The notes below the pieces were generated by a model that ran no database searches, had not been told where the DNA came from, and was given only the letters and a program-made list of their open reading frames with translations. Below, piece by piece: positions 11,317 through 25,706 of a DNA stretch of 64,000 bases. The stretch is from Bradyrhizobium roseum (GTDB lineage: Bacteria; Pseudomonadota; Alphaproteobacteria; Rhizobiales; Xanthobacteraceae), in assembly GCF_030413175.1 (NCBI RefSeq), contig NZ_CP129212.1, positions 2,170,001 to 2,234,000 of the forward strand. The letters are read 5' to 3'. Every line of letters begins with the position of its first letter. Position 1 is the first letter of the stretch. A program made the translations under genes and the position numbers.

Positions 11317-12311
11317 TGTTGACCGCGCCGCTTCTCGCTATCAGCAATTTGACCGTTCAGTTCCGCGTGGATAGCGGCTGGGTGACGGCGATCGATGATG
11401 TCTCGCTGGACGTGGATGCAGGCGATTGTGTCGGCGTTGTCGGCGAATCCGGCAGCGGCAAGAGTGTCACGGCGCTCTCGATTCTGGGACTGCACGCGCG
11501 CGCCACCACGCGGATATCGAGCGGGACGATCCTGTATCAGGGGCAGGACCTGCTGCGTGCGCGCGCGTCGGCGATGCGGCGGATTCGCGGCAGCGAGATC
11601 GCCATGATCTTCCAGGACCCGATGTCGTCGCTCAATCCGGTGCTGACCATCGCCGACCAGATTTCGGAGACGTTGCGCCAGCACCAGGGCCTCACAGGAG
11701 AGGCCGCGCGAAAACGTGTGGTCGAATTGCTCGGCCTGGTGCGGATTCCCGACGCCTCGCGCCGCGCCGACGACTATCCGCATCGGCTGTCCGGCGGCAT
11801 GCGGCAGCGGGTGATGATCGCGATGGCGATCGCCTGCAAGCCGCGGCTCTTGATTGCCGACGAGCCGACCACCGCGCTCGACGTCACCATTCAGGCGCAG
11901 ATCCTCGAACTGCTGCGCGACCTCCGCAAGGAGCTGAGCATGTCCGTCATGCTGATCTCCCACGATCTCGGTGTGATCGCCGAATTCGCCCAGCGCGTCG
12001 TCGTGATGTATGCCGGTCGGGTGGTCGAGGATGCGCCGGTGGCGCAGCTGTTCCGGCGCCCTGTGCATCCGTACACCATGGGGCTGATATCAGCGGTGCC
12101 GAAGCTGGACAGCGATGCGCCGCGGCTTGCCACCATTCCCGGCCGAATCCCGTCGCCGCAGGAGGTCATCCCGGGCTGCCGATTCAGCCCGCGCTGCGCG
12201 CTGGTGCAGGACAGCTGCCTGGACCAGCAACCATCGATGCAACTGGCCGGCGATCGCCAGTCGGCCCGCTGTCCGCCGCGTCTTCTCGCACTGGGCGCGC
12301 GCCATGGTTGA
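11316..12311 (+). CDS. ABC transporter ATP-binding protein, DppD type
   Basis: A 331-residue ATPase with Walker A GESGSGKS at 43-50, Q-loop [11 protein letters not shown], signature LSGGMRQR, Walker [13 protein letters not shown] and switch His in LISHDLG. The C-terminal oligopeptide-transporter extension has the cysteine-containing [14 protein letters not shown] region that binds an iron-sulfur cluster in some DppD proteins. The ATG at 11316 overlaps the stop of the upstream permease; longer in-frame extensions are not credible. Confidence 0.95.
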
Positions 12312-13275
12312 CCAGCCCCAGCCCATCGTCGAAGTCCGCGACCTCTGCAAGACCTTCGCCGTCAAGCATGCCGGCGGCGTCTCGACGCTTCACGCCCTGA
12401 GCGGCGTCAATTTCGATATCATGCGCGGCGAAACGCTGGGGTTGGTCGGCGAGTCCGGTTCGGGAAAGACAACGGCAGGACGGATTCTGGTCGGGTTGAT
12501 CCCGGCGACAAGCGGGGCGGTCAGCCTGTTCGGTCACAGCATCACCGGACCGGATGGCAAAGCTCAACTCGCTTCCGTGCGGTCGCGGCTGCAGTTCGTG
12601 TTTCAGGATCCTTATGCGTCGCTCAACCCTCGAATGCGGATCGGCAACGCCATAGCCGAGCCGCTCGACATCGCCGGCACGCATTCGCGCAAGGATCGCA
12701 ACGATCGGGTCGCGGAATTGCTCGAACTGGTGGGGCTGCCGAGGAACAGCGTCGAGCGTTATCCGCATGAATTCTCCGGTGGCCAGCGGCAGCGTATCGT
12801 GATTGCGCGGGCGCTAGCGCTTAATCCGGATTTCGTCGTGTGCGACGAGCCGGTATCGGCACTGGACGTCTCGATGCAGGCGCAGATCGTCAATCTGCTG
12901 CTCGACCTGCAGGACCGGATCGGGCTGAGCTATCTGTTCATCGCGCACGACCTGGCGGTGGTGCGCGCGGTCTCAACCCGCGTGGCCGTGATGTATGCCG
13001 GCGCCATCGTCGAGACAGCGCCGAAGTCACAGATCTATTCCGACCCGCAGCATCCTTACTCGAGGGCCCTGCTCGATGCCGTGCCGCGCGCCGATCCGGA
13101 TTTTGTTCGTCATTCCGTCGTGGCGGGCGAAGTGCCGAGCCTGCTCGATCCGCCGCGGGGCTGCCGTTTCCACCCGCGCTGCGCGTTCGCGATGGACCGA
13201 TGCCGGGTTGATGTGCCGGAGCTGAAAGCGTCCGGCACGGATCGCCAGGTCGCCTGTCATCTATTCGCGGGGTAA
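12304..13275 (+). CDS. ABC transporter ATP-binding protein, DppF type
   Basis: A 323-residue ATPase with Walker A GESGSGKT at 49-56, Q-loop FVFQDPYASLNPRMRIG, signature FSGGQRQR, Walker B FVVCDEPVSALD and switch His in FIAHDLAVV. The C-terminal oligopeptide domain carries CRFHPRCAFAMDRC. It overlaps the DppD-type gene by 8 bases and closes the importer operon. Together the five genes form a complete importer (binding protein, two permeases, two ATPases). Confidence 0.95.
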   Translation: MVDQPQPIVEVRDLCKTFAVKHAGGVSTLHALSGVNFDIMRGETLGLVGESGSGKTTAGRILVGLIPATSGAVSLFGHSITGPDGKAQLASVRSRLQFVFQDPYASLNPRMRIGNAIAEPLDIAGTHSRKDRNDRVAELLELVGLPRNSVERYPHEFSGGQRQRIVIARALALNPDFVVCDEPVSALDVSMQAQIVNLLLDLQDRIGLSYLFIAHDLAVVRAVSTRVAVMYAGAIVETAPKSQIYSDPQHPYSRALLDAVPRADPDFVRHSVVAGEVPSLLDPPRGCRFHPRCAFAMDRCRVDVPELKASGTDRQVACHLFAG

Positions 13276-13362
13276 AGAAGCCAATTATCGCAAAACCGTT
13301 CGAAACCCTCCACCGTGTTGCGCGTACCACTACGGGTAGCCGCGAACCGGAAGTATTCGAGC

Positions 13363-13584
13363 GTGAACAAAGCGTCCAACGTCGATCGCTTGCGCGACAA
13401 GATCAGAACCCTTCGTGGGAAAGCCGGCGAACTTCCCGACGGCGACGAGCGGGACGACCTGCTGCGCAAGGCAGAAGAGGACGAAATTTCACTGCGCTTG
13501 ATCGAGTGGATCACTTCCCCGGGGGAAATTTCTCCCCCTGAAGGCCTTATTCCCATCAAAAAACATCGGCTGCGCCGGGAGTAA
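13363..13584 (+). CDS. Small hypothetical protein
   Basis: A 73-residue protein, charged and mostly helical at its N-terminal half (NVDRLRDKIRTLRGKAGELP), with a proline-rich end. I do not recognise a domain. The GTG at 13363 has GGAAG 9 bases upstream; a TTG at 13315 would add 16 residues. It lies between the importer operon and a convergent HAD gene, with no clear functional link. Confidence 0.55.
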   Translation: MNKASNVDRLRDKIRTLRGKAGELPDGDERDDLLRKAEEDEISLRLIEWITSPGEISPPEGLIPIKKHRLRRE

Positions 13585-13590
13585 GCTGGC

Positions 13591-14250
13591 TCACTCGTTC
13601 ATGACGGAACGAATACAGTTGCGCAGTTCGTCGACCGCCGTGGCAATGCGATGCGCGCCGGCCGCCATCAATCGATCCGTTTCGTGGTAACCCCAGGCGA
13701 CGCCGATCGAACGGAGGCCGGCGGCCCGCGCCATCTCCATGTCAAACGTCGTGTCGCCGATGAAGATCGTATCGCTGGGCGTTGCCCCGATCGCCGCCAT
13801 CGCCTGGAGGAGCATGCCGGGGTGCGGCTTTGAGGGCGCCGTGTCGGCGGCCTGAATAGTTCGAAAATGGCCATCCCATCGCAGCTCTTCCAGAGCAGGA
13901 GCCACTGTGTCGGTCCTGTGTCCGGTCGCAAGACCCAAAACGGTATCCGGACTGGAACTCAGCTCGAGTAAGAGATCGCCTACGCCATCGAACGGCCGTT
14001 CGGCAAAGCCAGCGTCGGCTCGCAATCGCGGCAGCAGCAGATCGTAGGCCCTGACCATCTCTGATATCGGCGCCGTCGGGCCGGCCAGCTCCGTCAGGAT
14101 GACGTTAAGTGATTTCCCGACCAGCGCCAGACTGGTGGCCGGCGGCGGGGCGGGCAACTGGAATTCGGCAAAGACGATACGATGGCTCTCCAGGATGAGG
14201 GAGCGGCTGTCGACCAACGTGCCGTCGAAATCAAAGATGATCAGCTTCAA
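13591..14250 (-). CDS. HAD-superfamily phosphatase (phosphoglycolate phosphatase-like)
   Basis: A 219-residue HAD hydrolase. Motif I FDFDGTLVDS is at residues 6-15 with both catalytic aspartates, motif II is LATGHRT, motif III Lys is in APSKPHPGMLLQA, and motif IV is FIGDTTFDMEMA. The cap region (SLNVILTELAGP onward) is like Gph/YjjG. The family hydrolyses small phosphate esters; the substrate cannot be read from sequence. I chose TTG 14250, directly before KLIIFDFDGT, with GAGAG upstream; starting at 14328 would overlap the preceding gene. It lies 19 bases after that gene, so the two probably share a transcript. Confidence 0.88.
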   Translation of the reverse strand: MKLIIFDFDGTLVDSRSLILESHRIVFAEFQLPAPPPATSLALVGKSLNVILTELAGPTAPISEMVRAYDLLLPRLRADAGFAERPFDGVGDLLLELSSSPDTVLGLATGHRTDTVAPALEELRWDGHFRTIQAADTAPSKPHPGMLLQAMAAIGATPSDTIFIGDTTFDMEMARAAGLRSIGVAWGYHETDRLMAAGAHRIATAVDELRNCIRSVMNE

Positions 14251-14269
14251 GGGTTCTCTCGGCGTGATG

Positions 14270-15709
14270 TTATCGGTGCAGGCACGAATATATCCGTACC
14301 AGTTCGCGCGCCTGCACCGGAACGGCAAGCGCGGAATCCCTGCTTTTCGTTGCTGTCTCGCACGATAGCCAGAAGTAATTCCCGGCGGGATCGATGACGA
14401 GCCGGTTCGGCGCGAAGTTTGAAAGAATGATCGATAGATAAGGAACGGTCGAAAACCACGACAGCGCGGCGAGCGCTGGCCGGATCCGTTCGGCCGAGAC
14501 GAAACGAGGATCGCCGAGCCTGGGATCAGATTGATCGCTCATCGCCAGACCGGCCACGGCATCGCGATAATCGACCCAGGAGGCGACGAACTTCCCGGTC
14601 TCAACCAGATGAATCGTGGTCACCACCATAAACATCGAGGCGAGGGCGCATAACGCACGCTCACGTCGCGAGATCAGGCTGTGCCCAAGGCTCGCCAGCT
14701 CAAGGTCAATTTCTTCCCTGATCATGGCGGTGATTGCCGCCATAGCGCCGAGCAGCGGAATGGCAAGGACCAGCGCGGTTCGCAGATAATAGCGGCTGTC
14801 CGCATGCAGCGAATGATCAAAATGCAGCCAGTAGATGGTCAGTGCCCCGAGCAGGAGCCCAAGCGCGACAATGCACGCCTGTCGTGGAAGCCATTTTGAG
14901 ATAAGCATGAAGCTCGCGCCGTAGGCGATCACAGCTGCCAGCAGGACCAGAACGATCCTCACCTCGAAAATCGCGGGATCGAAGAAATTCAGGGCGGCCC
15001 GCAGGAATGCGTCGGCGTAATAGTCATCGGGAGGAGCGAAAATCTTCGCCGCCGCAGCCAGTGCCACGATGACCATCAGGCTGGCGACCGCGCGAACAAA
15101 AGCTGCACTCCGTAACCCGCGCAGCGCCAGCGTAGCCGTAATGGTCGCGAGCAACACCAGGCCTCCTTCGTGGGTGAAGGCCAGCAGGAGCGATGTAGCA
15201 AATACCAGCAAGGCACCGGCGACGGTCGGCTTCGCATAATGGCTCAGCGCCAGCGCCGGCCAGAATATCGCGTGCGCGAGCCACATTTCTGTTGGAAAGC
15301 CGAAGATCAGCGGGCAGAGCAGGGCTGTCGATCCGCACGCATAGACAAAGATGATGCGGCCGGGGGAACGGTCGGCCGCGTAAGTTGCAGCCAACCCGAT
15401 CAATGGCGAGATATAGAACAGAAGACCGTATGCGATGATTCCGGCCGAGGGATTGCCCGTCATCCAAACGAGCGCCTCCGCCGGCAGCAGCGTCAACAGG
15501 AACACCGACATTCGGCCGGAGACATTGTGCCAATGAAAGGCCCAGACATCCCGGACTGCGACCGCGTACGAAAACATCGCGCCGTCGCCATAGAGCTGGA
15601 GCCGGAACAGCAGCGCGGCGACAGGAAACGCTACGGCCCAGCCGAGGCCTCCGCCAATGACCAGAAGCCGGAACGAATGGTCATCGAGACGCAGCGCCTG
15701 GTCGGCCAT
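14270..15709 (-). CDS. Polytopic membrane protein of unknown function
   Basis: A 479-residue protein with about ten hydrophobic segments, including LGWAVAFPVAALLFRL near the N-terminus and VLVLLAAVIAYGASFML in the middle. The periplasmic-looking early loop (YGDGAMFSYAVAVRDVWAFHW) and overall layout resemble bacterial integral membrane sugar-metabolism proteins, but I see no assignable motif. It lies upstream of the HAD gene in the same direction and close to the cluster of glycosyl and pteridine genes. Confidence 0.75.
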   Translation of the reverse strand: MADQALRLDDHSFRLLVIGGGLGWAVAFPVAALLFRLQLYGDGAMFSYAVAVRDVWAFHWHNVSGRMSVFLLTLLPAEALVWMTGNPSAGIIAYGLLFYISPLIGLAATYAADRSPGRIIFVYACGSTALLCPLIFGFPTEMWLAHAIFWPALALSHYAKPTVAGALLVFATSLLLAFTHEGGLVLLATITATLALRGLRSAAFVRAVASLMVIVALAAAAKIFAPPDDYYADAFLRAALNFFDPAIFEVRIVLVLLAAVIAYGASFMLISKWLPRQACIVALGLLLGALTIYWLHFDHSLHADSRYYLRTALVLAIPLLGAMAAITAMIREEIDLELASLGHSLISRRERALCALASMFMVVTTIHLVETGKFVASWVDYRDAVAGLAMSDQSDPRLGDPRFVSAERIRPALAALSWFSTVPYLSIILSNFAPNRLVIDPAGNYFWLSCETATKSRDSALAVPVQARELVRIYSCLHR

Positions 15710-15768
15710 CTCAATGACTCTTCATACCGGGCGTGATGCCGTTCAGCATCGGCGGAGAGATCGCAGTT

Positions 15769-16908
15769 TCATGACGTCTCGCCTGCAGGAGATTTCAGGG
15801 TGGCGAATTTATGTCCGGAGCGTGCGGCCTTCGTCGTCAGATAGTGCCTGTTGTGGGAATTCACCGCCGTTTCCAGCGGAACGCGGGCGAGGATTTCGAT
15901 ACCGCCTTTCTTGAGACCATCGAGTTTTGCCGGATTGTTGGTCATCAGGAGGATCCGGGTGCATTCGAGGGTTCGGAGCATCGTCGCAGCGATCTGGTAG
16001 TTGCGCTCATCGTCTTCGAAACCCAGCATCGTGTTGGCGTCGCGCGTATCGAGTCCGGTGTCCTGCAATCGATAGGCCCGCATCTTGTTCGCAAGACCGA
16101 TGCCGCGCCCTTCCTGGGCGAGGTACAGGACGATGCCGCCACCGAGGCTCTCCAGTCGTGTCAGCGCGAGCCGGAGCTGGTCGCCACAGTCGCACCGCTG
16201 CGAGCCGAACACGTCGCCCGTCAGGCATGCCGAATGCAGACGAACCGGGACCGGTTCGGCGAAGTCAGGCTTGCCGACGATGATGGCGACCTGGTCGATA
16301 CCGAGCGCGTCGCGGAACACGACAAAGCGGGCCGCCGAGCCCGACACAAGGGGAATCGTGGCGTCGCTCGCAACCACTAATGCGTCCCCGTGACGTGCCG
16401 CGAAGCGATCGACCGCGTCGGCTTCGACGCTGACTATCGTTCGCGTCACTTGTTCGGGAACGGTTTTCAGATTGGCCGCCACAACCGCCGGCAGGCCGCG
16501 GCTGAGCTTGACGAGCCGGATCGCTGCCCGAGCGGCACGGCCGGCGGCCACGGCTTTCAGGGCAGCGTGGGTCTTGCGGTCGTCACCGGCGGCGGCAAGT
16601 GCGAAGATTTCGCTCGCACGGGTCTCTGCGGAGAGCGGCAATGCGATCGGAGCGGCTGCCTCAATTCCGATGGCGCACGCCCGCTGCTGTGTTAGTATCA
16701 GGTGCAGAGCGTTCGGGCCGCACAGCCCTGCAAATTCGCGCAGCCGCTGGTCGTCGAGGTCCTCCACCGGCAAAGCGAACAGGATCTCACCGGGGGCGTC
16801 GAAGCGAACCGGTCTCCGCGTGTGGAGTTCGTTAAGGGCACGGCTGACCGCGAGGTATTCCTCGTTGCCGAACAACGCGGAACTTGCTTGGGAATGCGCG
16901 GCGCTCAT
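15769..16908 (-). CDS. ribA: GTP cyclohydrolase II with long N-terminal extension
   Basis: A 379-residue protein. The C-terminal half (about 190-379) is a complete RibA domain. The zinc ligands are in HSACLTGDVFGSQRCDCGDQL (Cys-X10-Cys-X-Cys), and the catalytic stretch LAQEGRGIGLANKMRAY and the DDERNY and TNNPAKLDGL segments match E. coli RibA. The enzyme opens GTP to 2,5-diamino-6-ribosylamino-pyrimidinone phosphate, formate and pyrophosphate. The N-terminal ~180 residues are alanine-rich with no motif I recognise and are not the DHBP synthase (RibB) domain. The gene is divergent from a RibD-type reductase, 99 bases away, and there is no room for an FMN riboswitch in the gap. It may serve the adjacent specialised cluster rather than general riboflavin synthesis. 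Confidence 0.9.
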   Translation of the reverse strand: MSAAHSQASSALFGNEEYLAVSRALNELHTRRPVRFDAPGEILFALPVEDLDDQRLREFAGLCGPNALHLILTQQRACAIGIEAAAPIALPLSAETRASEIFALAAAGDDRKTHAALKAVAAGRAARAAIRLVKLSRGLPAVVAANLKTVPEQVTRTIVSVEADAVDRFAARHGDALVVASDATIPLVSGSAARFVVFRDALGIDQVAIIVGKPDFAEPVPVRLHSACLTGDVFGSQRCDCGDQLRLALTRLESLGGGIVLYLAQEGRGIGLANKMRAYRLQDTGLDTRDANTMLGFEDDERNYQIAATMLRTLECTRILLMTNNPAKLDGLKKGGIEILARVPLETAVNSHNRHYLTTKAARSGHKFATLKSPAGETS

Positions 16909-17007
16909 TTACAGGATTCTCCAATACCGGGCGCGTTCGTGGAACACCGAAGGTCCGCAATCATTCCGTCATAAATCATATGGATTTTTAGGATCGAGTG
17001 ACCGATA

Positions 17008-17859
17008 GTGGCATCAATAACGTGCGAGAACCGTATTTTGAATCCTGCTGTACAGCTTGGCAATTTCCTCACCTGTGAATTTGCGTCTTCCGATGAGTGG
17101 GAGAGCTTTGTCGATCGTTTTCGTAAAGGACAGCAACCTCTGCCGCAAGCCTGGGCCGATCTATTCGGCCCGTTGTGCGGCGGGATGGTGGACGATCTCG
17201 TGGTCATCGGGCAGATCGGCCAGTCGCTCGACGGCCGGGTCGCGACCGCGACGGGTCATTCGAAATACATCAACTGCCCGGCCGGCATTGAGCATCTGCA
17301 CCGGCTGCGTGCGCTGGTCGACGTCGTCGTCGTCGGCGTTGGAACGGCGCTGGCCGACGATCCGCAACTGACAGTCAGGCAAGTCGCCGGCCCACAGCCC
17401 GCGCGTGCCGTGATCGATCCGAAGGGGCGCCTGGGAGCGGATGCAAAGCTGTTCGCCGACGATGGTGTTCGCCGCCTGCTGATCACGGTGGAAGGCTCCG
17501 CGGCTGCGCCGCCGCCGGGGGTCGAGGTCATCATTTTGACCGAAGAAGACGGAAACTTTGCACCTTCCGCCATCGTCGCGGCGCTGGCCCGCGCGGGGAT
17601 GCGCCGGATTCTGGTCGAGGGCGGCGCCGATACCGTGTCCCGCTTTATCGCGGCGCGATGTCTCGATCGGTTGCACGTCACCGTCGCGCCCGTCATGCTT
17701 GGCGCAGGAGGTCCCGGTATCGCGCTGCCGCCACTCGATCGGGCCGATGAGGCCCGCCGTATGCAGGTCCGCGTGCACAAGATCGAGGACGATGTTTTGT
17801 TCGATTGTGATCTGTCCGATCAGCGGATCGTCATCGGCACTGCAAAAAAGTCGACATGA
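17008..17859 (+). CDS. RibD C-terminal-type pyrimidine reductase, stand-alone (no deaminase domain)
   Basis: A 283-residue protein starting at GTG 17008. After about 65 residues of unassigned sequence it has the RibD_C reductase fold: GQIGQSLDGRVATATGHSKYI (substrate-binding start), LVDVVVVGVGTALADDPQLTVR (NADPH region), and ILVEGGADTVSRFI near the C-terminus. In riboflavin synthesis this domain reduces the ribosylamino side chain to ribitylamino. The zinc deaminase domain normally fused in front (HAE and PCxxxxxxPPC motifs) is absent. It is divergent from ribA and its 3' end overlaps the convergent methyltransferase by 40 bases. Confidence 0.85.
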   Translation: MASITCENRILNPAVQLGNFLTCEFASSDEWESFVDRFRKGQQPLPQAWADLFGPLCGGMVDDLVVIGQIGQSLDGRVATATGHSKYINCPAGIEHLHRLRALVDVVVVGVGTALADDPQLTVRQVAGPQPARAVIDPKGRLGADAKLFADDGVRRLLITVEGSAAAPPPGVEVIILTEEDGNFAPSAIVAALARAGMRRILVEGGADTVSRFIAARCLDRLHVTVAPVMLGAGGPGIALPPLDRADEARRMQVRVHKIEDDVLFDCDLSDQRIVIGTAKKST

Positions 17860-18629
17860 CCGACGCGCATCGTTGAAGCGCTCAAATCGACGTTCTCGTT
17901 ACGTCTAGCCAGCCAATCGTCAATGTCGCGATGCGGCAGCGCTTCGATCTCTCTTGCGGCTTGAGCCCATCCGGACAGCAATGCGCGCTGCATCTCGTGA
18001 TCGGCCGTTCCGATCTGCCAATCCGAGCGGCCCTGGATGACCGAATAGCCGGCCGCCTCGAACCTGGAAATGGCCGCGGCGGCGGCCGAGGGGCCGAGCG
18101 CTGGTCCAAAGCCCTTGTCGGTACGCTGGTGCGCATTGACCGCCGAAATGATGATTTCGTCGAGCGGGTCGGATGGGAAGAAGTCGGTGCGTCCGTCGTA
18201 AGTCAAGGCTGCGTAAAACGGCAGCGCGCGCGAGGCGATGTGGCGGACAAGGCGATCCAACCATGTTTCGGAGACCAGATCGAGCAGTGCAGAGGTCGTC
18301 ACCAGGTGCTTTGTGCTGTCGAGCACCGCTTCGAAATTGCCGCCAAGATCGAGCGACACGGCATTCAGCCTGACATCGCTGTCGTCATTTCCGCCGCATG
18401 CCAACGCCAGCAGATGTGGATCGTTGTCGACGAGATCCCAGTGCTGTCGTGCCTGCAGATGCGGGCCAATGGCACGGACGGTAGAGCCTGCACCGCAGGC
18501 CAGATCGACCACGTTGAGGGAGTCGCGCGACCTGAACCGATCGGCCACCGCGCCGAGCACCACCGGATTGCGCGCCCGCAGATCATGACTTTCCCGCAAG
18601 GCCAGCCATTCGGGAGAGAAGCCGCTCAT
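17820..18629 (-). CDS. Class I SAM-dependent methyltransferase
   Basis: A 269-residue protein with motif I VVDLACGAGSTVRAIGPHL, an acidic strand-2 end (WDLVDNDPHLL) and a later SALLDLVSETWL segment, typical of a Rossmann-fold methyltransferase. The ATG at 18629 overlaps the stop of the upstream glycosyltransferase (ATGA), so the pair is probably translationally coupled. It is the last gene of a four-gene run (dehydrogenase, PTPS homologue, glycosyltransferase, methyltransferase). The acceptor is unknown; in this context it could be a pteridine or pyrimidine product or the attached sugar. Confidence 0.82.
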   Translation of the reverse strand: MSGFSPEWLALRESHDLRARNPVVLGAVADRFRSRDSLNVVDLACGAGSTVRAIGPHLQARQHWDLVDNDPHLLALACGGNDDSDVRLNAVSLDLGGNFEAVLDSTKHLVTTSALLDLVSETWLDRLVRHIASRALPFYAALTYDGRTDFFPSDPLDEIIISAVNAHQRTDKGFGPALGPSAAAAAISRFEAAGYSVIQGRSDWQIGTADHEMQRALLSGWAQAAREIEALPHRDIDDWLARRNENVDLSASTMRVGHVDFFAVPMTIR

Positions 18630-19678
18630 GACAGTTTCTCCAGTGCGGCGGCGAAGATCGCCGCGGACTGCCGCCAGGTGGGTAACGTCCCCGCCGATGC
18701 CCACGCGCCGTCCGCGAACCTCCGCCGCAACTCGGCGTCAGCGATCAATTGACGCAGGGCCGCGCTCAGTTCAGCTGCGTCTCCGGGGGAAACCAGCAGG
18801 CCCGCCGCTGGCGGGACCGTATCGGGAATGGCTCCAGCCTTGGTCCCGATCACGGGCAAGCCGCGAGACAGTGCCTCGCTGTAAGCCATGCCATATCCCT
18901 CGAAACGGGAAGCGAGGACGAACACGTCCGCCTCGTCATAGAGCGCCGTGAGGCGTTCGGAGGACACCTCGCCAACCACCGCGATGCGGCCCGAAAGCCC
19001 ATATTCCGATATGCAGGCCAAAAGCCGTGCCGCTTCGCTCGGATCGCGGGTGAGATCGCCGGCAATCGTCAGCCGCCACGGAAGTTCAGCCAATGTCGCC
19101 AGCGCGGCAACGAGCACGTCGAATCCTTTCCGGGGCGTGACGGCGCCGACGGCGAGCAAATGCGGCGTGCCGTCCCGGCTTCCCCGCGCGCGCGGCGCCG
19201 GATCGCTGCCGGGCCTGGCGACGGTGATGCGCCCGGCCGGTACTTCATAACCAGAAGCGACGAGTTTTGCCGTCGCAGGGCTGGTCACCACGACTGCGCG
19301 CACCGACGCGAGCGCTGCCCGCTCGCTGCGATGCAAGGCGTCGGCGCGTTCGGCCGACAGCCCCCATTCCAGCGCGAGCGGATGATGCACCAGCCCGAGC
19401 AACGGATGGCGGCCTGCAACGTCCGCCGCGACATCCGGCAACACTCCCAAAGCCAGGCCGTCGATCACGATCGGCTGGCCGTCAGGTATCTTCAGCAGGA
19501 GCGATCGCGCAGCGGATCGCGTTGCCTCGTCAGGCGAAGGAAATCCGTCGCCGATGTCGAGGCATTCGACGTCCCAGCCCAGTTGCCGGAGTTCGGCCAT
19601 GATCCTCTTGTCATACGCATAGCCGCCGGTCGGCGTATCGAGGCTGCCCGGCACCGCGAAGACGACGCGCTTCACCAC
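18626..19678 (-). CDS. Family 4 (GT-B) glycosyltransferase
   Basis: A 350-residue GT-B glycosyltransferase. The N-terminal glycine-rich loop is DTPTGGYAYDKRIM; the C-terminal nucleotide-sugar domain starts at HLLAVGAVTPRKGFDVLVAAL and carries the E-X7-E motif in FEGYGMAYSEALSRG. It would transfer a sugar from a nucleotide donor to an unknown acceptor in the cytoplasm. It overlaps the PTPS homologue upstream by 7 bases and the methyltransferase downstream by 4, so all are likely in one operon. The pairing of a glycosyltransferase with GTP-cyclohydrolase-type genes is reminiscent of glycosylated pterins. Confidence 0.88.
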   Translation of the reverse strand: MVKRVVFAVPGSLDTPTGGYAYDKRIMAELRQLGWDVECLDIGDGFPSPDEATRSAARSLLLKIPDGQPIVIDGLALGVLPDVAADVAGRHPLLGLVHHPLALEWGLSAERADALHRSERAALASVRAVVVTSPATAKLVASGYEVPAGRITVARPGSDPAPRARGSRDGTPHLLAVGAVTPRKGFDVLVAALATLAELPWRLTIAGDLTRDPSEAARLLACISEYGLSGRIAVVGEVSSERLTALYDEADVFVLASRFEGYGMAYSEALSRGLPVIGTKAGAIPDTVPPAAGLLVSPGDAAELSAALRQLIADAELRRRFADGAWASAGTLPTWRQSAAIFAAALEKLS

Positions 19679-20073
19679 AAGGGCGCTTCGTACTGTGCGC
19701 GCGCGACGTGCGATTCGGACAGCGTGATGCGCAGCGCCTTGAGTTCGCGGCCGGGACGGCCAAGTTCGCCGGCGCGCGCGGGCTTCGCCAGGCCGTCGAA
19801 GATGTATTTGGACAGGAATTCCGTCGTCGTGTTCTTGCCCTTGAATTCCGGCACTTCGTCGAGATTTTGATAATTGAGCGGCCCAAGCACCGCCTTGAGC
19901 GCCTCATGCGCGCGGCCGATATCGATCACGATCGCATTGTCGTCGAGGGTCTCGGCGATGAAGGCGGCATCGATCACGAATGTGGCGCCATGCATCTTCT
20001 GTGCGGGTCCAAAGACGGCGCCCTTGAAGGAATGGGCGATCATGATGTGATCGCGAACTTCTACGGTGAACAC
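19672..20073 (-). CDS. 6-pyruvoyl-tetrahydropterin synthase/QueD-family protein with altered active site
   Basis: A 133-residue T-fold protein, normal length for the family. Alignment by eye to E. coli QueD shows that key residues are replaced. Zinc ligands His14 and His28 are present, but the third (HGH) is HGA, with Ala30. The catalytic cysteine four residues before His28 is Ala24, and the catalytic Asp-His pair is Asn67-Tyr68 (LNYQNLDEVPEF against LDHHYLNDIPGL). The conserved Glu after the PT/TT segment (Glu85) and the C-terminal ESH remain. It therefore should not carry out the usual PTPS or QueD reaction. The GTG start at 20073 has AGGAG upstream. It lies 9 bases after the dehydrogenase stop. 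Confidence 0.85.
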   Translation of the reverse strand: MFTVEVRDHIMIAHSFKGAVFGPAQKMHGATFVIDAAFIAETLDDNAIVIDIGRAHEALKAVLGPLNYQNLDEVPEFKGKNTTTEFLSKYIFDGLAKPARAGELGRPGRELKALRITLSESHVARAQYEAPLW

Positions 20074-20082
20074 GGCGGCTCC

Positions 20083-21072
20083 TTAAGGGTAGGTGATGGG
20101 TTGGCAGAGTACACCGCTGCCGGCCTCGAGAACATTCGGCAAGCGCGCGGGCAGATCGCGAAAGGCAACAGGGGGCGCCAGCAAGGCATCGAGCCTGGGA
20201 TCGCCCAGCAGCGCGATTGCGGCGGCAAGCCGGCGGCCGTATGTCCAGCGCGGACGATGCGATGGCGCGATGCGTCCGACCTGGCTCGATATCAGCCGAA
20301 GCCGGCGGCTGTGGAACGGCCCGCCAAGCATTGCCGTCACCGGCGCATCGCCATACCAGCTCATTTCCAACACCGTCGCTTCGTCGCCGGCCAGTTCGAG
20401 CGCCGTCCGCAATCCATCGGGCGATCCGCTGGCGTGAACGACGAGATCGCAGTCGGCTTTGGCGTTTGCGGGCTCTGCAAAGCCAACCCCGAGTTGGCCT
20501 GCTAATTCCGCCCGGCTGCCGTTGATGTCGATGAGCGTGACATCCGTTCCGGGAATCCGCCCGCACAGATAGGCGACGAGGGCGCCGACCACGCCGGCTC
20601 CGACCACCGCGATGCGGTCGGCCGGACCTGGCGCGGCGTCCCACACGCCGTTCAGCGCCGTTTCCATGTTGGCCGCCAGCACCGCACGCAATGGCGGAAC
20701 AGCCTCCGGGAGCACAACGACCGCGTCGGAAGGGATGTTGAACGCGGTCTGGTGCGGATGGAGCGCAAAGACGGTCTTGCCGCGCAAGACATCGCTGCCG
20801 TTCTCGATCTGTCCGACCGCGGCGTAGCCATATTTGACCGGAAACGGGAAATCGCCGGCCATGAACGGCGCGCGCATCCGCTGGAATTCGCCCGGGGGGA
20901 TGCGGCCGTCAAAGACCAGCGATTCCGTGCCGCGGCTGATGGCGCTGAAAAGGGCTTTTACACGCACTTCGCCGGCACCGGGCGGCGGGGTCAGTTCCTC
21001 GCGGAGTTCGACCTGTCTGGGACCACGATACCACAAAGCCGAGGTCGTCGTAGCGCCGGCGCTGACAGCCAT
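20083..21072 (-). CDS. MDR-superfamily (zinc-type alcohol dehydrogenase-like) oxidoreductase lacking catalytic-zinc cysteine
   Basis: A 329-residue medium-chain dehydrogenase: a GroES-like half (GAGEVRVKALFSAISRGTES), then a Rossmann half with IAVVGAGVVGALVAYLCG and an acidic strand end LIDINGSRAEL. The usual catalytic-zinc Cys-X2-Asp near the GroES start is replaced by SRGTE, the ISxGTE pattern seen in BchC-like proteins, and no structural-zinc four-cysteine lobe is visible. NAD(P)H-dependent reduction or oxidation is likely; the substrate is unknown. The start could also be the ATG at 21099. It is the first gene of the leftward pteridine-cluster operon. Confidence 0.82.
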   Translation of the reverse strand: MAVSAGATTTSALWYRGPRQVELREELTPPPGAGEVRVKALFSAISRGTESLVFDGRIPPGEFQRMRAPFMAGDFPFPVKYGYAAVGQIENGSDVLRGKTVFALHPHQTAFNIPSDAVVVLPEAVPPLRAVLAANMETALNGVWDAAPGPADRIAVVGAGVVGALVAYLCGRIPGTDVTLIDINGSRAELAGQLGVGFAEPANAKADCDLVVHASGSPDGLRTALELAGDEATVLEMSWYGDAPVTAMLGGPFHSRRLRLISSQVGRIAPSHRPRWTYGRRLAAAIALLGDPRLDALLAPPVAFRDLPARLPNVLEAGSGVLCQPITYP

Positions 21073-21190
21073 TTTCTTCGATCTCGGACTGGAATTCATG
21101 ACGGCAGGACGTGTTATAGACAATACTCTGCACCGCCCGTGGGCGAATGAGAAGCCGTAACCTGATCTGCTGCCGGTAGCCCGCCCCGCC

Positions 21191-22972
21191 ATGATTCAAG
21201 CCAACGCCGCCGACAACAGAATGTTCGCCAGGCGGGCGGTTTTTGCCGCCCTGTTCTCGATTACCATCGCTGCATCGCTATGGCTTGCTGCGGTCGCCTT
21301 GGCGCCCGGTGGATTTGGCGTCCTTGATCTTGCCGCGCTTGTCCTGTTTGCCATCACCTTGCCCTGGATGGCCGCCGGGTTCGCGAATGCCGTGATCGGT
21401 TTCATCATCATGCGCTTTTCCGCCGATCCGGTCGCGGCAGTTCTGCCTGCGGCCGGAATGATCGGCGATGAACAGCCCGTGACGGCGTCGACGGCCATCC
21501 TGCTGTGTATGCGCAACGAATTGCCGCGGCGTATCATCCGCAATCTCGAGACGATGCTCGAGGGACTCCACGATTCCGGCTATGGAGAGCAGTTCCATCT
21601 CTACCTCCTCAGCGATACCAGCGATGCCCATCTTGCGGCGAGCGAAGAGGCGCTGTTTTCGGAGCTGATTGGGCGCTGGCGCGACCGGATCGCGATCGAC
21701 TACCGCCGCCGCACGGTGAATACCGGCTTCAAGGCCGGCAATGTCCGCGAGTTTTGCGAACGCTGGGGCAGCCGCCACGAATTCGCCGTCACGCTCGATG
21801 CTGACAGTTTTATGTCGGCGGACGCCATCATCCGCCTGGTGCGGATCATGCAGGTCGATCCCAGGCTCGGCATTTTGCAGGGCCTGATCGTGGGGCTGCC
21901 GTCGACGAGCCTGTTCGCCCGAATCTTCCAGTTCGGCATGCGGCTCGGCATGCGCTCCTACACCATCGGAAGCGCGTGGTGGCAGTCCGATTGCGGGCCC
22001 TATTGGGGACACAACGCCATCCTGCGGCTCGAGCCGTTCATGAAGCACTGCCAGCTCCCGGTGCTGTCCGGGAGCGGCGAGGCGGAGCGGCATATCCTCA
22101 GCCACGACCAGATCGAGGCCGCGCTGATGCGCGCGGCAGGCTATCATGTGCGCGTCCTGCCGCGCGAGGATCTCGGCTGGGAGGAAAATCCGCCGACGCT
22201 GCTGGAGTTCATGCGCCGCGACCTGCGCTGGTGCCAGGGCAACATGCAGTACTGGCGGTTTCTGTTGCTGCCAACACTCCGGCCGGTTAGCCGCTATCAG
22301 CTCGTGCTCGCGATCCTGATGTTCATCGGTTCGCCGGCCTGGATCGGCTTGCTGGTCCTCGCCACGATCGCGCTCGCAACGAGTGATGATCCCGCCACGA
22401 TCATGCGCGCCGATGCCGGCGGCGCGTTGCTGATCTGGGTGCTCGTGATGTGGTTCTCGCCGAAGATTGCGGGCGCGCTCGACGTCCTGCTGGCGCGGCA
22501 GGAGCGGCGCGCGTTCGGCGGCGCGGGCAGATTCTCCGTCAACTTCGTCATCGAGACGATCTACTCCATCATCCTGTGCCCGATCCTCTGGATCAGTCAC
22601 ACGATCTTTCTGTTCGGACTGCTGTTCAATCGCGAGATTGGCTGGATGGGCCAGGTTCGTGACGATCATGCGGTGCCGTTACCCCTGGCATTGCAGGATC
22701 TCTGGCCGCAGACATTGGTCGGATGCGCATCGCTCGGCCTTGTACTCGCGAATCAGCCATGGGCGCTGCCGTACGTTCTGCTGCTTGCCGGCGGCCCGGC
22801 TTTGTCGGTCCCCTTCGCGATGGTGACCGCCTGGCCTGCGATCGGCGAACTGGCCGCGCGTGTCGGCATCGGCCGGATTCCGGAGGAGACGGTCACACCT
22901 GAGGATCTGCTTGAACTGGCGTTGCCCGCGATCAAGTCGGAGAGCCCGCCGCCTCTGACCAACTCGGTCTAG
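21191..22972 (+). CDS. OpgH/MdoH-like membrane glucosyltransferase
   Basis: A 593-residue GT2-family membrane enzyme: two N-terminal membrane segments, a cytoplasmic catalytic domain and several C-terminal membrane segments. Catalytic signs are LDADSF (DXD), GHNAILR, SHDQIEAA and RRDLRWCQGN (equivalent of QXXRW). OpgH polymerises beta-1,2-glucan backbones of osmoregulated periplasmic glucans at the inner membrane. It is shorter than E. coli OpgH, which has extra N-terminal sequence, and no opgG lies nearby. It begins a three-gene rightward run with an FkbM methyltransferase and a membrane glycosyltransferase-like protein. Confidence 0.9.
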   Translation: MIQANAADNRMFARRAVFAALFSITIAASLWLAAVALAPGGFGVLDLAALVLFAITLPWMAAGFANAVIGFIIMRFSADPVAAVLPAAGMIGDEQPVTASTAILLCMRNELPRRIIRNLETMLEGLHDSGYGEQFHLYLLSDTSDAHLAASEEALFSELIGRWRDRIAIDYRRRTVNTGFKAGNVREFCERWGSRHEFAVTLDADSFMSADAIIRLVRIMQVDPRLGILQGLIVGLPSTSLFARIFQFGMRLGMRSYTIGSAWWQSDCGPYWGHNAILRLEPFMKHCQLPVLSGSGEAERHILSHDQIEAALMRAAGYHVRVLPREDLGWEENPPTLLEFMRRDLRWCQGNMQYWRFLLLPTLRPVSRYQLVLAILMFIGSPAWIGLLVLATIALATSDDPATIMRADAGGALLIWVLVMWFSPKIAGALDVLLARQERRAFGGAGRFSVNFVIETIYSIILCPILWISHTIFLFGLLFNREIGWMGQVRDDHAVPLPLALQDLWPQTLVGCASLGLVLANQPWALPYVLLLAGGPALSVPFAMVTAWPAIGELAARVGIGRIPEETVTPEDLLELALPAIKSESPPPLTNSV

Positions 22973-22975
22973 CCG

Positions 22976-23719
22976 ATGTTCGGCGCCATCAGGACCGCGC
23001 GAGCCACCTTCCGGTCATTTCGCATTTATTACGGAGACCGGAAGCGGGCAGCGGCGATGGACCGGTTCTATCGCCAGTTCGTCCGCCCCGGCGATCTCGT
23101 ATTCGACGTCGGCGCACATGTCGGCGATCGCGTTGCCTCGTTCCAGCGGATCGGCGCGCGCGTCCTCGCGGTTGAGCCGCAGCCGGCCATGGTGCGGGCG
23201 CTCCGGCTGCTCTATGGCCGCAGCAGATCGGTGACCATCGAGGCGCTGGCGGTGGGCCGTGAGCCGGGCAGGGCGCGCATGCTGATCAACGTCGATAACC
23301 CGACGGTGTCGTCGATTTCTCCGGCTTTCGTCAAAGCCGCCGATGGCGCGCCGGGCTGGGAAACCCAGCGCTGGAGCGAGACCGCGGAGATCGAAGTCAC
23401 CACGCTGGATGCCTTGGTCGCCGGGCATGGCGTTCCCGCCTTCATCAAGCTCGACGTGGAAGGCTTTGAGGCGGAGGCCTTGTCGGGCCTGTCGCAGCCA
23501 GTGCCTGCGCTGTCGTTTGAATTCACCACCATCCAGCGCGACGTCGGGCTTGCCTGCATCGAGCGATGTGCGGCATTGGGCTACGCGCGTTTCAACGCGG
23601 CGCTTGGCGAGAGCCAGGCGCTGATCGGCGACTGGATGAGTGCGCCGGACGTCGCCCGTTGGCTGACTGAGCTGCCGCAGACGGCGAATTCCGGAGACAT
23701 CTATGCCGTCGCGGACTGA
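22976..23719 (+). CDS. FkbM family methyltransferase
   Basis: A 247-residue protein starting 3 bases after the OpgH-like stop. It shows the FkbM pattern: SAM motif LVFDVGAHVGDRVASF, acidic strand end VLAVEPQPAMV, and the characteristic IKLDVEGFEAEALSGL. FkbM enzymes O-methylate sugars, polyketides and other small molecules. Its position suggests it methylates a glycan or the product of a neighbouring glycosyltransferase. It overlaps the next gene by 17 bases. Confidence 0.9.
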   Translation: MFGAIRTARATFRSFRIYYGDRKRAAAMDRFYRQFVRPGDLVFDVGAHVGDRVASFQRIGARVLAVEPQPAMVRALRLLYGRSRSVTIEALAVGREPGRARMLINVDNPTVSSISPAFVKAADGAPGWETQRWSETAEIEVTTLDALVAGHGVPAFIKLDVEGFEAEALSGLSQPVPALSFEFTTIQRDVGLACIERCAALGYARFNAALGESQALIGDWMSAPDVARWLTELPQTANSGDIYAVAD

Positions 23720-25046
23720 ACGACCATCGCTACAGCCCCGCGCTGTGATGATCTCCGTCGCCGTGCTGCTCGCCGCGGGCTTCGGCCTGACGCTGCTGAT
23801 CTTCTATCCCGGTGTCATGACTTACGACGCCAAGTTCGTGTACGAGGACATCGCCAAGGGCACGATGGGCGACTGGCAGTCGCCGGTCATGGTCTGGCTG
23901 TGGGGCGTGATCGATCCGATCGCTCCCGGTCCCGGCAGCATGTTCCTTCTCATTGCGACGACCTACTGGGCGGGCTTTGGCATGCTGTCGCTCGCGCTCG
24001 CTTCCCGCGGCAAGACCGTCGCGCTGCTGCTGCCGCTGCTGGCGATGACGCCGCCGGCTCTTGCCTTTGCCGGCATCATCTGGCGGGACGTTCTGCTGGC
24101 GACGTGCTGGCTGCTCGCCGCAACAGTCGCCTTCGCGGTATCTGAACGCCAGTCCCCGATCAGGCCGGCCGGGCAAGGGCTGGCGCTGGTGTTGTTGATA
24201 TCAGGGGTGCTGCTGAGGCCGAACGCGCTGCTGGCTGCGCCGATCCTCGCGGCCTACATCGTCTGGCTGTCGCGTGTGTCACTGCGCAGGACTGCCATCC
24301 TCTATGTCCCCGCCATGATTGGCCTGTTCGGTACCGTGCAACTTGCCTACTACGGCATGCTGGACGCCAAGCGACAGCATCCGCTGCAAACGATCATGAT
24401 CTTCGATCTCGGCGGTATCAGCCACTTTGCGAAGCAGAACCAGTTCCCCGTCGCGTGGAGCGAGTCCGAGAGCGCGATGCTGCTCAACGGCTGCTATCAG
24501 CCGACGATGTGGGATATTTATTGGCGGCTCAAGCCGTGTGATTTCGTCATGCGCAAGGTCGAGCGCGAAACGGGCTTGTTCGGCACACCGGCGATACCGA
24601 GCGCTTGGCTAACGGCGGTGCTCCATCATCCGGTCGCCTACCTGCAGCATCGCTCGGCCTTCATGTGGAACTTTCTCGCCGCCGACAATCTGGGAATGTG
24701 GACGGCCGACGTTGAACACCCGATGGAGAGGGTCTACGCCGATCGCGCGGCCTTTAACGCCCTGGTCGCGGCGCACGATGCCATCAAGCCGACGCCCTTT
24801 CTCCGCGCGGGATTCTGGCTTCTGGCCTGTATCGTCATCTGTGGCTGGAGCTGGAGGCGAAGCGGCCCGCGCGAAGCGTCCTTTGCGCTGGCCGTCTGCG
24901 GTTCGGCGACGGTCTATGTCGCGAGCTTCTATGCCCTCGGCGTGGCGTCCGACTTCCGCTATGGCTATTGGGCGGTGCTGGCCGCGATCGCGGGCGGCAT
25001 CGTCGCGTCGTCCGGCGAAGCGAGGACAAACGAGCCAGAGGGTTAA
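23703..25046 (+). CDS. Polytopic membrane protein, GT39/ArnT-like glycosyltransferase candidate
   Basis: A 447-residue protein with about ten membrane segments. After the first helix it has FYPGVMTYDAKFVYEDI and MGDWQSPVMVWLWGVI, the acidic-loop pattern of lipid-linked-sugar (GT-C) transferases, and a second loop IIWRDVLLATCW. GT-C enzymes use polyprenyl-phosphate sugars on the periplasmic side. It overlaps the FkbM gene by 17 bases and converges on the cytochrome c gene with 6 bases between stops. Substrate and reaction are inferred only from topology. Confidence 0.7.
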   Translation: MPSRTERPSLQPRAVMISVAVLLAAGFGLTLLIFYPGVMTYDAKFVYEDIAKGTMGDWQSPVMVWLWGVIDPIAPGPGSMFLLIATTYWAGFGMLSLALASRGKTVALLLPLLAMTPPALAFAGIIWRDVLLATCWLLAATVAFAVSERQSPIRPAGQGLALVLLISGVLLRPNALLAAPILAAYIVWLSRVSLRRTAILYVPAMIGLFGTVQLAYYGMLDAKRQHPLQTIMIFDLGGISHFAKQNQFPVAWSESESAMLLNGCYQPTMWDIYWRLKPCDFVMRKVERETGLFGTPAIPSAWLTAVLHHPVAYLQHRSAFMWNFLAADNLGMWTADVEHPMERVYADRAAFNALVAAHDAIKPTPFLRAGFWLLACIVICGWSWRRSGPREASFALAVCGSATVYVASFYALGVASDFRYGYWAVLAAIAGGIVASSGEARTNEPEG

Positions 25047-25052
25047 AGCCGC

Positions 25053-25574: not shown

Positions 25575-25706
25575 GCAAGTCTCCGCTCGTGTTTGGCGCC
25601 CGAAGCCTAATGGTGGCCCAGTTCGGGAATAACCAACCGCTCGAAAGGTTGCATAGGATAGGATGACACAAGCAAATTTTACCCGGCGCTTTGCGATCGA
25701 ACTTCA

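Follow-up and report, generated by a model that had tools for sequence, protein, structure and literature searches.

Within the 64,000-nucleotide stretch of Bradyrhizobium roseum DNA analyzed here (the window), the six adjacent genes listed in a first-pass annotation were all confirmed in place, and four of the six assignments score above curated Pfam cut-offs. They encode a predicted GTP cyclohydrolase II (RibA) with an N-terminal extension (15769..16908, minus strand), a RibD_C-only reductase (17008..17859, plus strand; start codon uncertain), a class I SAM methyltransferase of a divergent family (17820..18704, minus), a GT4 glycosyltransferase (18626..19678, minus), a PTPS/QueD-fold protein (19672..20073, minus), and an MDR dehydrogenase (20083..21192, minus). 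The last four overlap or nearly touch, as previously described: a 9-nt gap separates the dehydrogenase and PTPS genes, the PTPS and GT4 ORFs overlap by 7 nt, and the GT4 and methyltransferase ORFs by 79 nt when measured from the first possible start. The RibD_C gene is convergent with the methyltransferase gene (40-nt overlap) and divergent from ribA. The cluster extends past these genes into 21191-23719, where genes for an MdoH/OpgH-like membrane glucosyltransferase (21191..22972, plus) and an FkbM-family methyltransferase (22976..23719, plus) are located, and cytochrome b561 is an added member in other genomes. The earlier list was sound for its six genes and overlooked MdoH, FkbM, cytochrome b561, a CDP-alcohol alternative to MdoH, and the PTPS-IV identity discussed below. 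On the other flank lie a HAD-family hydrolase (13591..14328, minus), a candidate phosphatase whose position is conserved only in L062 and L063, both close relatives, and a 479-aa protein lacking a Pfam match (14270..15709, minus), with counterparts near the cluster in L062, L063, L065, and L077. Riboswitch control was rejected, since an Rfam search of 13000-26000 returned two matches, both far below gathering scores. A plasmid megablast with 13500-25100 gave one short match.

The window RibA (GTP_cyclohydro2, 178 bits, above the curated cut-off) keeps the three-Cys zinc motif HSACLTGDVFGSQRCDCG and a Tyr aligned with the catalytic Tyr105 of E. coli, the combination expected of a GTP cyclohydrolase II (GCHII). 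Among three GCHII matches in the genome, it alone looks like a full GCHII; the second is a degenerate RibA fused to a separate RibB, and the third belongs to the PRK07198 family and lies beside DUF1688. The reductase has RibD_C at residues 66-241 (131 bits, above the curated cut-off) and no matched deaminase domain, in agreement with its earlier description, and the SLDG Asp and EGG Glu are conserved in 84 of 85 relatives. Of the concern that ribA and the reductase might be the sole riboflavin copies in the genome, the part on ribA stands to the extent just described, while the genome encodes two further RibD_C proteins besides the reductase. A match as strong as the window ribA occurs in only 5 of 31 genomes of the genus, so it is not the genus-wide riboflavin enzyme. 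Elsewhere the genome carries an nrdR-ribD-ribE-ribH-nusB block whose RibD bears the deaminase, and deaminase, lumazine synthase, and riboflavin synthase are all present at locus L146 of the same genome; none of the three was found among the ten window proteins scanned with Pfam. The cluster is therefore not a riboflavin operon, which agrees with the first-pass annotation.

The GT4 protein (Glycos_transf_1, 110 bits, above the curated cut-off) matches many generic GT4 enzymes in the PDB. For the methyltransferase, the Methyltransf_25 match is below threshold (20.5 bits versus 27) and a PDB sequence search returned nothing meaningful; 41 of 43 aligned homologs match this model at E ≤ 0.01, and the predicted structure (mean pLDDT 92) resembles generic class I methyltransferases in the PDB, where TM-scores reach about 0.6 at best and nothing points to a substrate. 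At E ≤ 0.001 no Pfam family matches the dehydrogenase, and in the PDB it gives only weak matches, to zinc alcohol dehydrogenases. Its true start probably lies near 21045-21095, because relatives align from 30-50 codons after the first ATG. Zinc alcohol dehydrogenases carry a catalytic Cys and GHE zinc-ligand motifs. The window protein lacks both; across 137 loci the Cys position is Arg in 128 proteins and the GHE region reads YGY, each column in 134 of 137, and that identity was rejected. BchC, which likewise lacks the zinc motif, is the nearest NCBIfam model, and BchC identity was rejected as well (49 bits versus a cut-off of 291). An OpgH/MdoH osmoregulated glucan synthase would be expected to resemble curated MdoH models closely and to have an OpgG partner. 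The window MdoH-like protein passes the cut-offs of some of these models (502 versus 419 and 435 versus 328) and fails those of others (661 versus 884), and this cluster-specific subfamily is separated from other OpgH homologs by a gap from 443 to 307 bits.

The PTPS-fold protein (PTPS, 76 bits, above the curated cut-off) carries FGPAQ, as do the proteins at 141 of 142 loci overall, a signature of the PTPS-IV subfamily (PMC5445326). Its third zinc His is replaced by Ala at all 142 loci (HGA in 142, HGH in none), and H14, Q25, H28, D72, and E120 are kept, which together with the invariant Ala argues that PTPS-IV is constrained rather than decaying. PTPS-I/QueD identity was rejected, as the CxxxHGH motif and the zinc triad are absent and the QueD model gives 35.8 bits against a cut-off of 89; PTPS-II (biopterin) identity was rejected for lack of CxxxxxHGH. 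A queuosine role was likewise rejected, given the missing HGH and a separate QueD-like protein with HGH in the genome. As to the earlier remark that queuosine and tetrahydrobiopterin would need a GTP cyclohydrolase I, this enzyme (FolE) and a canonical QueD are encoded elsewhere in the genome. The only PDB sequence match at E ≤ 0.001 is SCO6650 of Streptomyces coelicolor (3d7j; 156 bits, residues 1-131), deposited as uncharacterized and reportedly devoid of zinc and of PTPS activity. Openly licensed papers searched for SCO6650, SCO6655, or 3D7J held nothing relevant.

Together with FGPAQ, the PF00925 and RibD_C (PF01872) neighborhood identifies the window protein as a predicted PTPS-IV member; both domains have been reported beside PTPS-IV for cluster-node 62, comprising 561 sequences (AGeNNT 2017, PMC5445326). 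That paper labels PF00925, which is GTP cyclohydrolase II, as FolE2 (GTP cyclohydrolase I), and its available text names no glycosyltransferase, methyltransferase, BchC-like dehydrogenase, MdoH, cytochrome b561, or CDP-alcohol module. The wider cluster beyond this neighborhood was not found in the openly licensed literature searched. The PTPS-IV subfamily is very common, with matches at E ≤ 1e-10 in at least 7,999 clusters formed at 90% identity, and its members are annotated as 6-carboxytetrahydropterin synthase, wrongly so by the motifs tested here.

A search of related genomes, as the first-pass annotation had advised, found the neighborhood kept together in Rhizobiales and beyond, across several phyla, so the objection that it might not be conserved falls away. 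Among 199 genomes of the order, the PTPS-like gene occurs in 54 (a cut-off of E ≤ 1e-5 gives 56, including two weak matches), and the dehydrogenase is present at E < 1e-75 in exactly these 54, with matches between 1e-20 and 1e-46 in six further genomes. In genomes with versus without PTPS-IV, RibD_C occurs in 41/54 versus 1/145, the methyltransferase in 50/54 versus 3/145, cluster-type MdoH in 44/54 versus 2/145, and full-length RibA in 30/54 versus 5/145; the Fisher tests applied to these counts, and to the module exclusivity described below, ignore phylogeny. The dehydrogenase and PTPS genes lie on the same strand less than 600 bp apart at 134 of the 137 loci holding both (median gap, 11 bp), an adjacency that is more than chance. 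Distances correlate moderately from one core protein to another (0.44-0.69).

The partners vary more. Within 9 kb of PTPS are 29 of the 41 RibD_C genes, RibA in 22 of 54 genomes, and FkbM, a frequent neighbor of the MdoH-like gene, also in 22 of 54; five further RibD_C genes lie on the PTPS contig at distances of 58 kb to 4.4 Mb. Four detached RibD_C regions were examined, with adjacent RibA in three and cytochrome b561 in three. Thirteen of the 54 cluster genomes gave no RibD_C match at E ≤ 1e-25 and 20 gave no RibA match at E ≤ 1e-15, suggesting that other enzymes serve there or that the core uses another substrate. The methyltransferase is absent from 4 and cluster-type MdoH from 10 of the 54, while Rhodobacterales variants such as L041 have a displaced GT4 and in L196 none is annotated beside the core. 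In two congeners (G171 and G194) the set is rearranged and includes neither the methyltransferase nor cluster-type MdoH, and either RibA or the dehydrogenase is spread across two frames. G111 has cluster-type MdoH without PTPS-IV, yet fragments of the dehydrogenase and RibD_C are still clear there. Across the 142 loci, MdoH (103 loci) and a CDP-alcohol phosphatidyltransferase (16 loci), the latter often accompanied by a membrane protein of LPG-synthase type and a sulfatase-like protein, never occur together, and 23 loci have neither; the two membrane modules are mutually exclusive.

Creatininase-family genes lie near PTPS-IV at nine of 142 loci; their products gave weak ArfB model matches in three of three tested, with MftE and creatininase as the best NCBIfam matches, under cut-off. 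In each of the two actinobacterial clusters where RibA has another residue in place of the Tyr (Met in L037, Gln in L116), such a gene is present. The link rests on these two cases, since Tyr is kept in five of the seven clusters combining RibA with creatininase and four RibA proteins with Leu in its place have no creatininase at their loci. A relative of this family deformylates the GCHIII product, and BrbF yields the same diaminopyrimidine as proposed here (PMC9478397); unlike BrbF/ArfB, the creatininase genes described here adjoin a glycosylation and methylation cluster rather than riboflavin genes.

Taken together, the gene content tentatively suggests, with a confidence somewhat short of even, that the cluster is a dedicated route in which GTP becomes a reduced pterin-like compound that bears a sugar, usually also a methyl group, and is handled at the inner membrane or across it. 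The chemical steps beyond RibA, the glycosyl acceptor, the location, and the redox role we infer as follows. RibA would open GTP to 2,5-diamino-6-ribosylamino-4(3H)-pyrimidinone 5'-phosphate, an opening that a creatininase-family formamidase may complete where RibA lacks the Tyr105 counterpart. RibD_C would reduce the ribosyl C1' to a ribityl-type chain, with no prior deamination, and the phosphate would be removed by a phosphatase, of HAD type in this genus and of inositol-monophosphatase type in Rhodobacterales. The zinc-less, BchC-like dehydrogenase could then oxidize a side-chain hydroxyl, most simply the C2'-OH, to a ketone open to attack by the 5-amino group, with PTPS-IV (a pterin-type pocket with an altered metal site) assisting ring closure or rearrangement to a dihydropterin, such that reduction followed by re-oxidation would stand in for the Amadori step of GTP cyclohydrolase I. 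GT4 would add a sugar and the methyltransferase a methyl group, after which the MdoH-like synthase or the CDP-alcohol phosphatidyltransferase module would extend the product or anchor it in the envelope, and electron exchange with cytochrome b561 may occur there. This exact ring closure, taken alone, is doubtful. A still bolder version is decidedly unlikely: a second, GTP cyclohydrolase I-independent pterin route, with GTP cyclohydrolase II, a C1' reductase, and a C2' dehydrogenase in place of the Amadori step, whose dihydropterin, once glycosylated and methylated, is fixed in the envelope by the MdoH-like synthase or by transfer to phospholipid and acts as a periplasm-facing redox cofactor served by cytochrome b561. 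The expected product type, a sugar-bearing pterin, resembles cyanopterin, limipterin, and tepidopterin of cyanobacteria and green sulfur bacteria, and cyanopterin is in the tetrahydro form in vivo (PMC3546692). In the available text of the sources these pterin glycosides start from GTP cyclohydrolase I and are not described with GCHII, RibD_C, PTPS-IV, or MdoH.

Other readings of the gene set were weighed. The core might instead be a pterin from GTP cyclohydrolase I, with RibD_C making the tetrahydro form, PTPS-IV and the dehydrogenase trimming the side chain, GT4 glycosylating, and RibA only serving flavins or relieving GTP flux. RibD_C and dihydrofolate reductase have a common fold, and a PDB match of the reductase, Rv2671 (4xrb; 47 bits), is presumably a dihydrofolate-reductase-like protein; this match, the FolE elsewhere in the genome, and the cluster genomes in which RibA was not found are consistent with such a route. 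It is nevertheless unlikely: FolE was not seen among the recurrent neighbors while RibA is linked to PTPS-IV in the 22 genomes noted above, RibA accompanies RibD_C when the latter is detached, and the cluster RibD_C retains SLDG, DDPxLTVR, and EGG, common to riboflavin reductases. Toxoflavin clusters consist of GCHII, a RibD-type deaminase, a methyltransferase, and further tox genes. The first-pass annotation had envisaged a route from the GCHII product through a reduced ribityl-type pyrimidine to a methylated, glycosylated product with a toxoflavin-like comparison; that comparison is not supported, as no deaminase domain was matched in the window cluster, and on this ground toxoflavin cluster identity was rejected. 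A glycosylated pyrimidine similar to vicine, or an azapteridine similar to toxoflavin, rather than a bicyclic pterin would require no more than GCHII, a glycosyltransferase, and a methyltransferase, and VC1, a gene of RIBA type, reportedly initiates vicine synthesis in faba bean (PMC12202586). Such a product would give no role to the dehydrogenase or to the invariant PTPS-IV pocket, the cluster holds no RibD-type deaminase, and occurrence in several phyla is unlike that of a toxin cluster, making this reading distinctly unlikely too.

In known pathways RibA and RibD_C give ribityl-aminopyrimidines, and the pair would suit a lumazine- or flavin-like compound with an 8-ribityl group, its 2-amino group retained and its second ring taken from another carbon donor; such a product is improbable, given that no relative of lumazine synthase or riboflavin synthase is among the recurrent neighbors identified (not all were). 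F420 synthesis begins from ribityl-aminouracil, and a contribution to F420 or a related deazaflavin would be compatible with that origin. PTPS-IV has been assigned to archaeal F420 synthesis, with attribution to unpublished work (Zallot 2016, PMC5041015). The deaminase needed for the uracil is absent, and a radical-SAM-like CxxxCxxC ORF of at least 250 aa lies within 9 kb at only 3 of 142 loci, so the cluster does not include FO synthase, and this contribution is improbable as well. Since RibA and RibD_C are of riboflavin type and MdoH and FkbM of glycan type, a flavin-overproduction module might also have come to lie beside exopolysaccharide genes by chance; this is highly improbable in view of the co-occurrence and conserved order in 54 of 199 order genomes and other phyla, and of the rarity of cluster-type MdoH where PTPS-IV is lacking (2 of 145 genomes, one of them G111 with its core fragments).

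The proposed route from GTP to an envelope-associated, pterin-like glycoside would give the PTPS-IV subfamily a concrete pathway, with partners, a step order, and two alternative membrane endings, so that the role of this long-unassigned family becomes testable. The Tyr-type RibA proteins and the Met- or Gln-type RibA proteins accompanied by a putative formamidase offer a natural comparison for GTP cyclohydrolase II divergence. Pterins are being recognized as periplasmic signals (PMC13259868), and, if the proposal is right, a widespread small molecule, possibly an envelope pterin, would be added to bacterial physiology.

The six open reading frames proposed in the first-pass annotation are all present in the window, which spans positions 2,170,001-2,234,000 of the source genome, a single contig of 7.3 Mb. 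Pfam matches of the window proteins upheld the assignments of RibA (GTP cyclohydrolase II, GCHII), a RibD_C reductase without the deaminase domain, a GT4 glycosyltransferase, and a PTPS/QueD-fold protein of the FGPAQ type (PTPS-IV; 19672..20073, minus strand). The other two proteins are divergent: the methyltransferase call is backed by its relatives and by a predicted model, and the dehydrogenase call by a weak match to BchC. Upstream of the cluster (11049-13275), two open reading frames, read by eye, resemble oligopeptide-type ABC transporter ATPases. A 447-aa protein adjoining the FkbM gene (23703-25046) has no Pfam match at E ≤ 0.05.

The neighborhood that the earlier annotation had put forward for comparison across the order is conserved there, though not always complete. 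Of 199 genomes, 56 contain a PTPS-like protein at E ≤ 1e-5 (54 strong matches and two weak ones, ~29% identity). Dehydrogenase matches at E < 1e-75 fall in exactly the 54 genomes with a strong PTPS-like match; six further genomes match the dehydrogenase by the E ≤ 1e-20 limit, the match in genome G111 being a fragment. In the 54 loci compared (53 fetched, plus the window), the core within 9 kb of PTPS-IV comprises the dehydrogenase (53/54), GT4 (53/54), and the methyltransferase (49/54), accompanied by MdoH (43/54), RibD_C (29/54), cytochrome b561 (25/54), RibA (22/54), and FkbM (22/54), and more rarely by a CDP-alcohol phosphatidyltransferase (5/54), a sulfatase-like protein (3/54), an LPG-synthase-type membrane protein (3/54), or a creatininase (2/54). 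PTPS itself was scored in 53 of 54 loci, since one contig (G083) ends within it. Genome-wide, RibD_C was found in 41/54 cluster genomes versus 1/145 others (G123, 56% complete), the methyltransferase in 50/54 versus 3/145, cluster-type MdoH in 44/54 versus 2/145, full-length RibA in 30/54 versus 5/145, and any RibA-type match in 34/54 versus 27/145, with Fisher p-values of 7e-9 to 2e-38 from a test that ignores phylogeny. Within the genus, the distribution is patchy (three of six congeneric genomes of the order sample, source genome included). Two congeners (locus L044 in G171 and L045 in G194) carry a rearranged cluster with GT4 upstream of the dehydrogenase and with both the methyltransferase and cluster-type MdoH missing; one gene is split over two frames in each, namely RibA in G171 and the dehydrogenase in G194.

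RibD_C is antiparallel to PTPS-IV in 77 of 85 loci. In five genomes, the two share a contig but are separated by 58 kb to 4.4 Mb; in seven, RibD_C sits on another contig, some of these cases being contig breaks. Three of the four detached RibD_C regions inspected have an adjacent RibA, and three have an adjacent cytochrome b561. RibD_C, RibA, and cytochrome b561 are thus a unit, one that goes with the core even when unlinked. This co-travel is the strongest sign of a common function. In G111 (L191, 8782-12283), the MdoH gene and parts of the dehydrogenase and RibD_C remain while the genes between them are missing, as if the cluster had been lost through one deletion; in G076 (L192), an MdoH-like gene lies beside a RibD_C-matching stretch. 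Separately, Rhodobacterales-type variants (L041, L113, L126, L130, L133, and L138) have an inositol-monophosphatase-family gene near ribA, and a PfkB kinase annotated nearby in L041 is a candidate for a sugar or ribityl-phosphate step.

Housekeeping riboflavin genes lie elsewhere: the nrdR-nusB block of the source genome holds a deaminase-bearing RibD, riboflavin synthase, and lumazine synthase. The genome has three PF00925 matches, including the window RibA. The second is RibB fused to a RibA-like part (L002, 850-1956), in which no HSxCxTGD...CDCG zinc motif was seen by eye; the third is a PRK07198-family protein adjoining DUF1688 (L003, 132-2628), a pairing of GCHII-like gene and DUF1688 also known from the URC uracil-catabolism pathway. 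PF00925 matches above 180 bits occur in only 5 of the 31 genomes of the genus, and the remaining 26 reach at most 89 bits. The window RibA is therefore not the enzyme on which the genus generally relies for riboflavin, though in the source genome it could feed riboflavin as well. The creatininase-family formamidase BrbF, which Sinorhizobium meliloti needs for riboflavin according to PMC9478397, may explain how relatives manage without a RibA of the window type.

In PTPS-IV, H14, Q25, H28, D72, and E120 are kept in all 142 loci compared, FGPAQ is present in 141, and Ala30 (142/142) aligns with the second His of HGH in the QueD-like protein of the source genome. The SLDG Asp and EGG Glu of RibD_C are kept in 84 of 85 sequences. 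Zinc alcohol dehydrogenases are marked by a catalytic Cys and a GHE motif; the cluster dehydrogenase has Arg at the former position (128/137) and YGY at the latter, making the name "zinc-binding alcohol dehydrogenase" misleading. At the RibA position aligned with E. coli Tyr105 (63 sequences), Tyr occurs in 56, Leu in four, Met in one, and Gln in one, with one sequence cut off. A Tyr-to-Met change in a Streptomyces coelicolor GCHII reportedly halts the reaction at the formyl intermediate. The Met (Streptomyces, L037) and Gln proteins belong to the two actinobacterial clusters, both of which include a creatininase-family gene, as do five clusters with Tyr-type RibA.

The best explanation for this gene set is conversion of GTP to a glycosylated, usually methylated, pterin-like compound handled at the membrane. 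Judging from the anatomy of the cluster, RibA would yield 2,5-diamino-6-ribosylaminopyrimidinone phosphate, which RibD_C would reduce directly, with no deaminase step; archaeal and fungal enzymes act on the non-deaminated GCHII product in this way. The dehydrogenase would form a C2' ketone next to the free 5-amino group, and their condensation would give a 7,8-dihydropterin that has the carbon skeleton of neopterin; GTP cyclohydrolase I makes this same compound via an Amadori rearrangement. PTPS-IV would be a natural partner for this ring. Less probably, GTP cyclohydrolase I (FolE) supplies the pterin core, with RibD_C reducing the dihydropterin; FolE and the HGH-containing QueD-like protein are both encoded away from the cluster in the source genome. 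The proposed route is weakest for the 13 cluster genomes without RibD_C and the 20 without RibA, where the precursor must come from other enzymes unless the FolE-based alternative is right.

Part of this association is already in print. A 2017 paper (PMC5445326) reports PF00925 and RibD_C neighbors of PTPS-IV and terms PF00925 FolE2, a GTP cyclohydrolase I; the PF00925 protein of this cluster is instead a GTP cyclohydrolase II. A 2016 paper (PMC5041015) assigns PTPS-IV to F420 synthesis, citing unpublished work; FO synthase is not part of the cluster, judging by a radical-SAM-like CxxxCxxC motif in a reading frame within 9 kb in only 3 of 142 loci. The link of PTPS-IV to PF00925 and RibD_C is known, while its wider association with GT4, the methyltransferase, the dehydrogenase, cytochrome b561, and either membrane ending (MdoH or CDP-alcohol phosphatidyltransferase) was not met in the literature searched.

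The cluster extends beyond the order. Among the matches listed, the named organisms whose PTPS-like protein is closest to that of the window belong to Bradyrhizobium (98% and 89% identity), and the gene occurs in 27 of 398 genomes of a phylum-wide sample. A 20-member profile confirmed at least 586 stretches (one genome per species), of which 80 loci were retained; profile loci include Polynucleobacter, Xanthomonas, Marinobacter, Saccharopolyspora, and Nanopelagicales and Acidobacteria MAGs. Plasmid records carry the cluster in Methylosinus, Neorhizobium, Agrobacterium, Rhizobium, Palleronia, Thiodictyon, and Streptomyces fungicidicus. Non-pathogenic laboratory strains with the cluster include Xanthobacter autotrophicus DSM 432 (L102) and Roseibium aggregatum IAM 12614 (L079). 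On two Streptomyces plasmids (L039, ~8001-8399; L195, ~7001-7426), a PTPS-IV gene without other cluster genes neighbors cupin, MEKHLA, and BTAD-regulator genes, possibly a second context of the subfamily.

The cluster MdoH-like subfamily is set apart from other MdoH homologs by a score gap (443 versus 307 bits). MdoH occurs in 103 of the 142 loci, a CDP-alcohol phosphatidyltransferase in 16, neither in 23, and both together in none; 139 loci have distinct PTPS-IV ends, and relatedness among the 142 is still present in these counts. We interpret the two endings as alternatives that each deal with the same product at the membrane.
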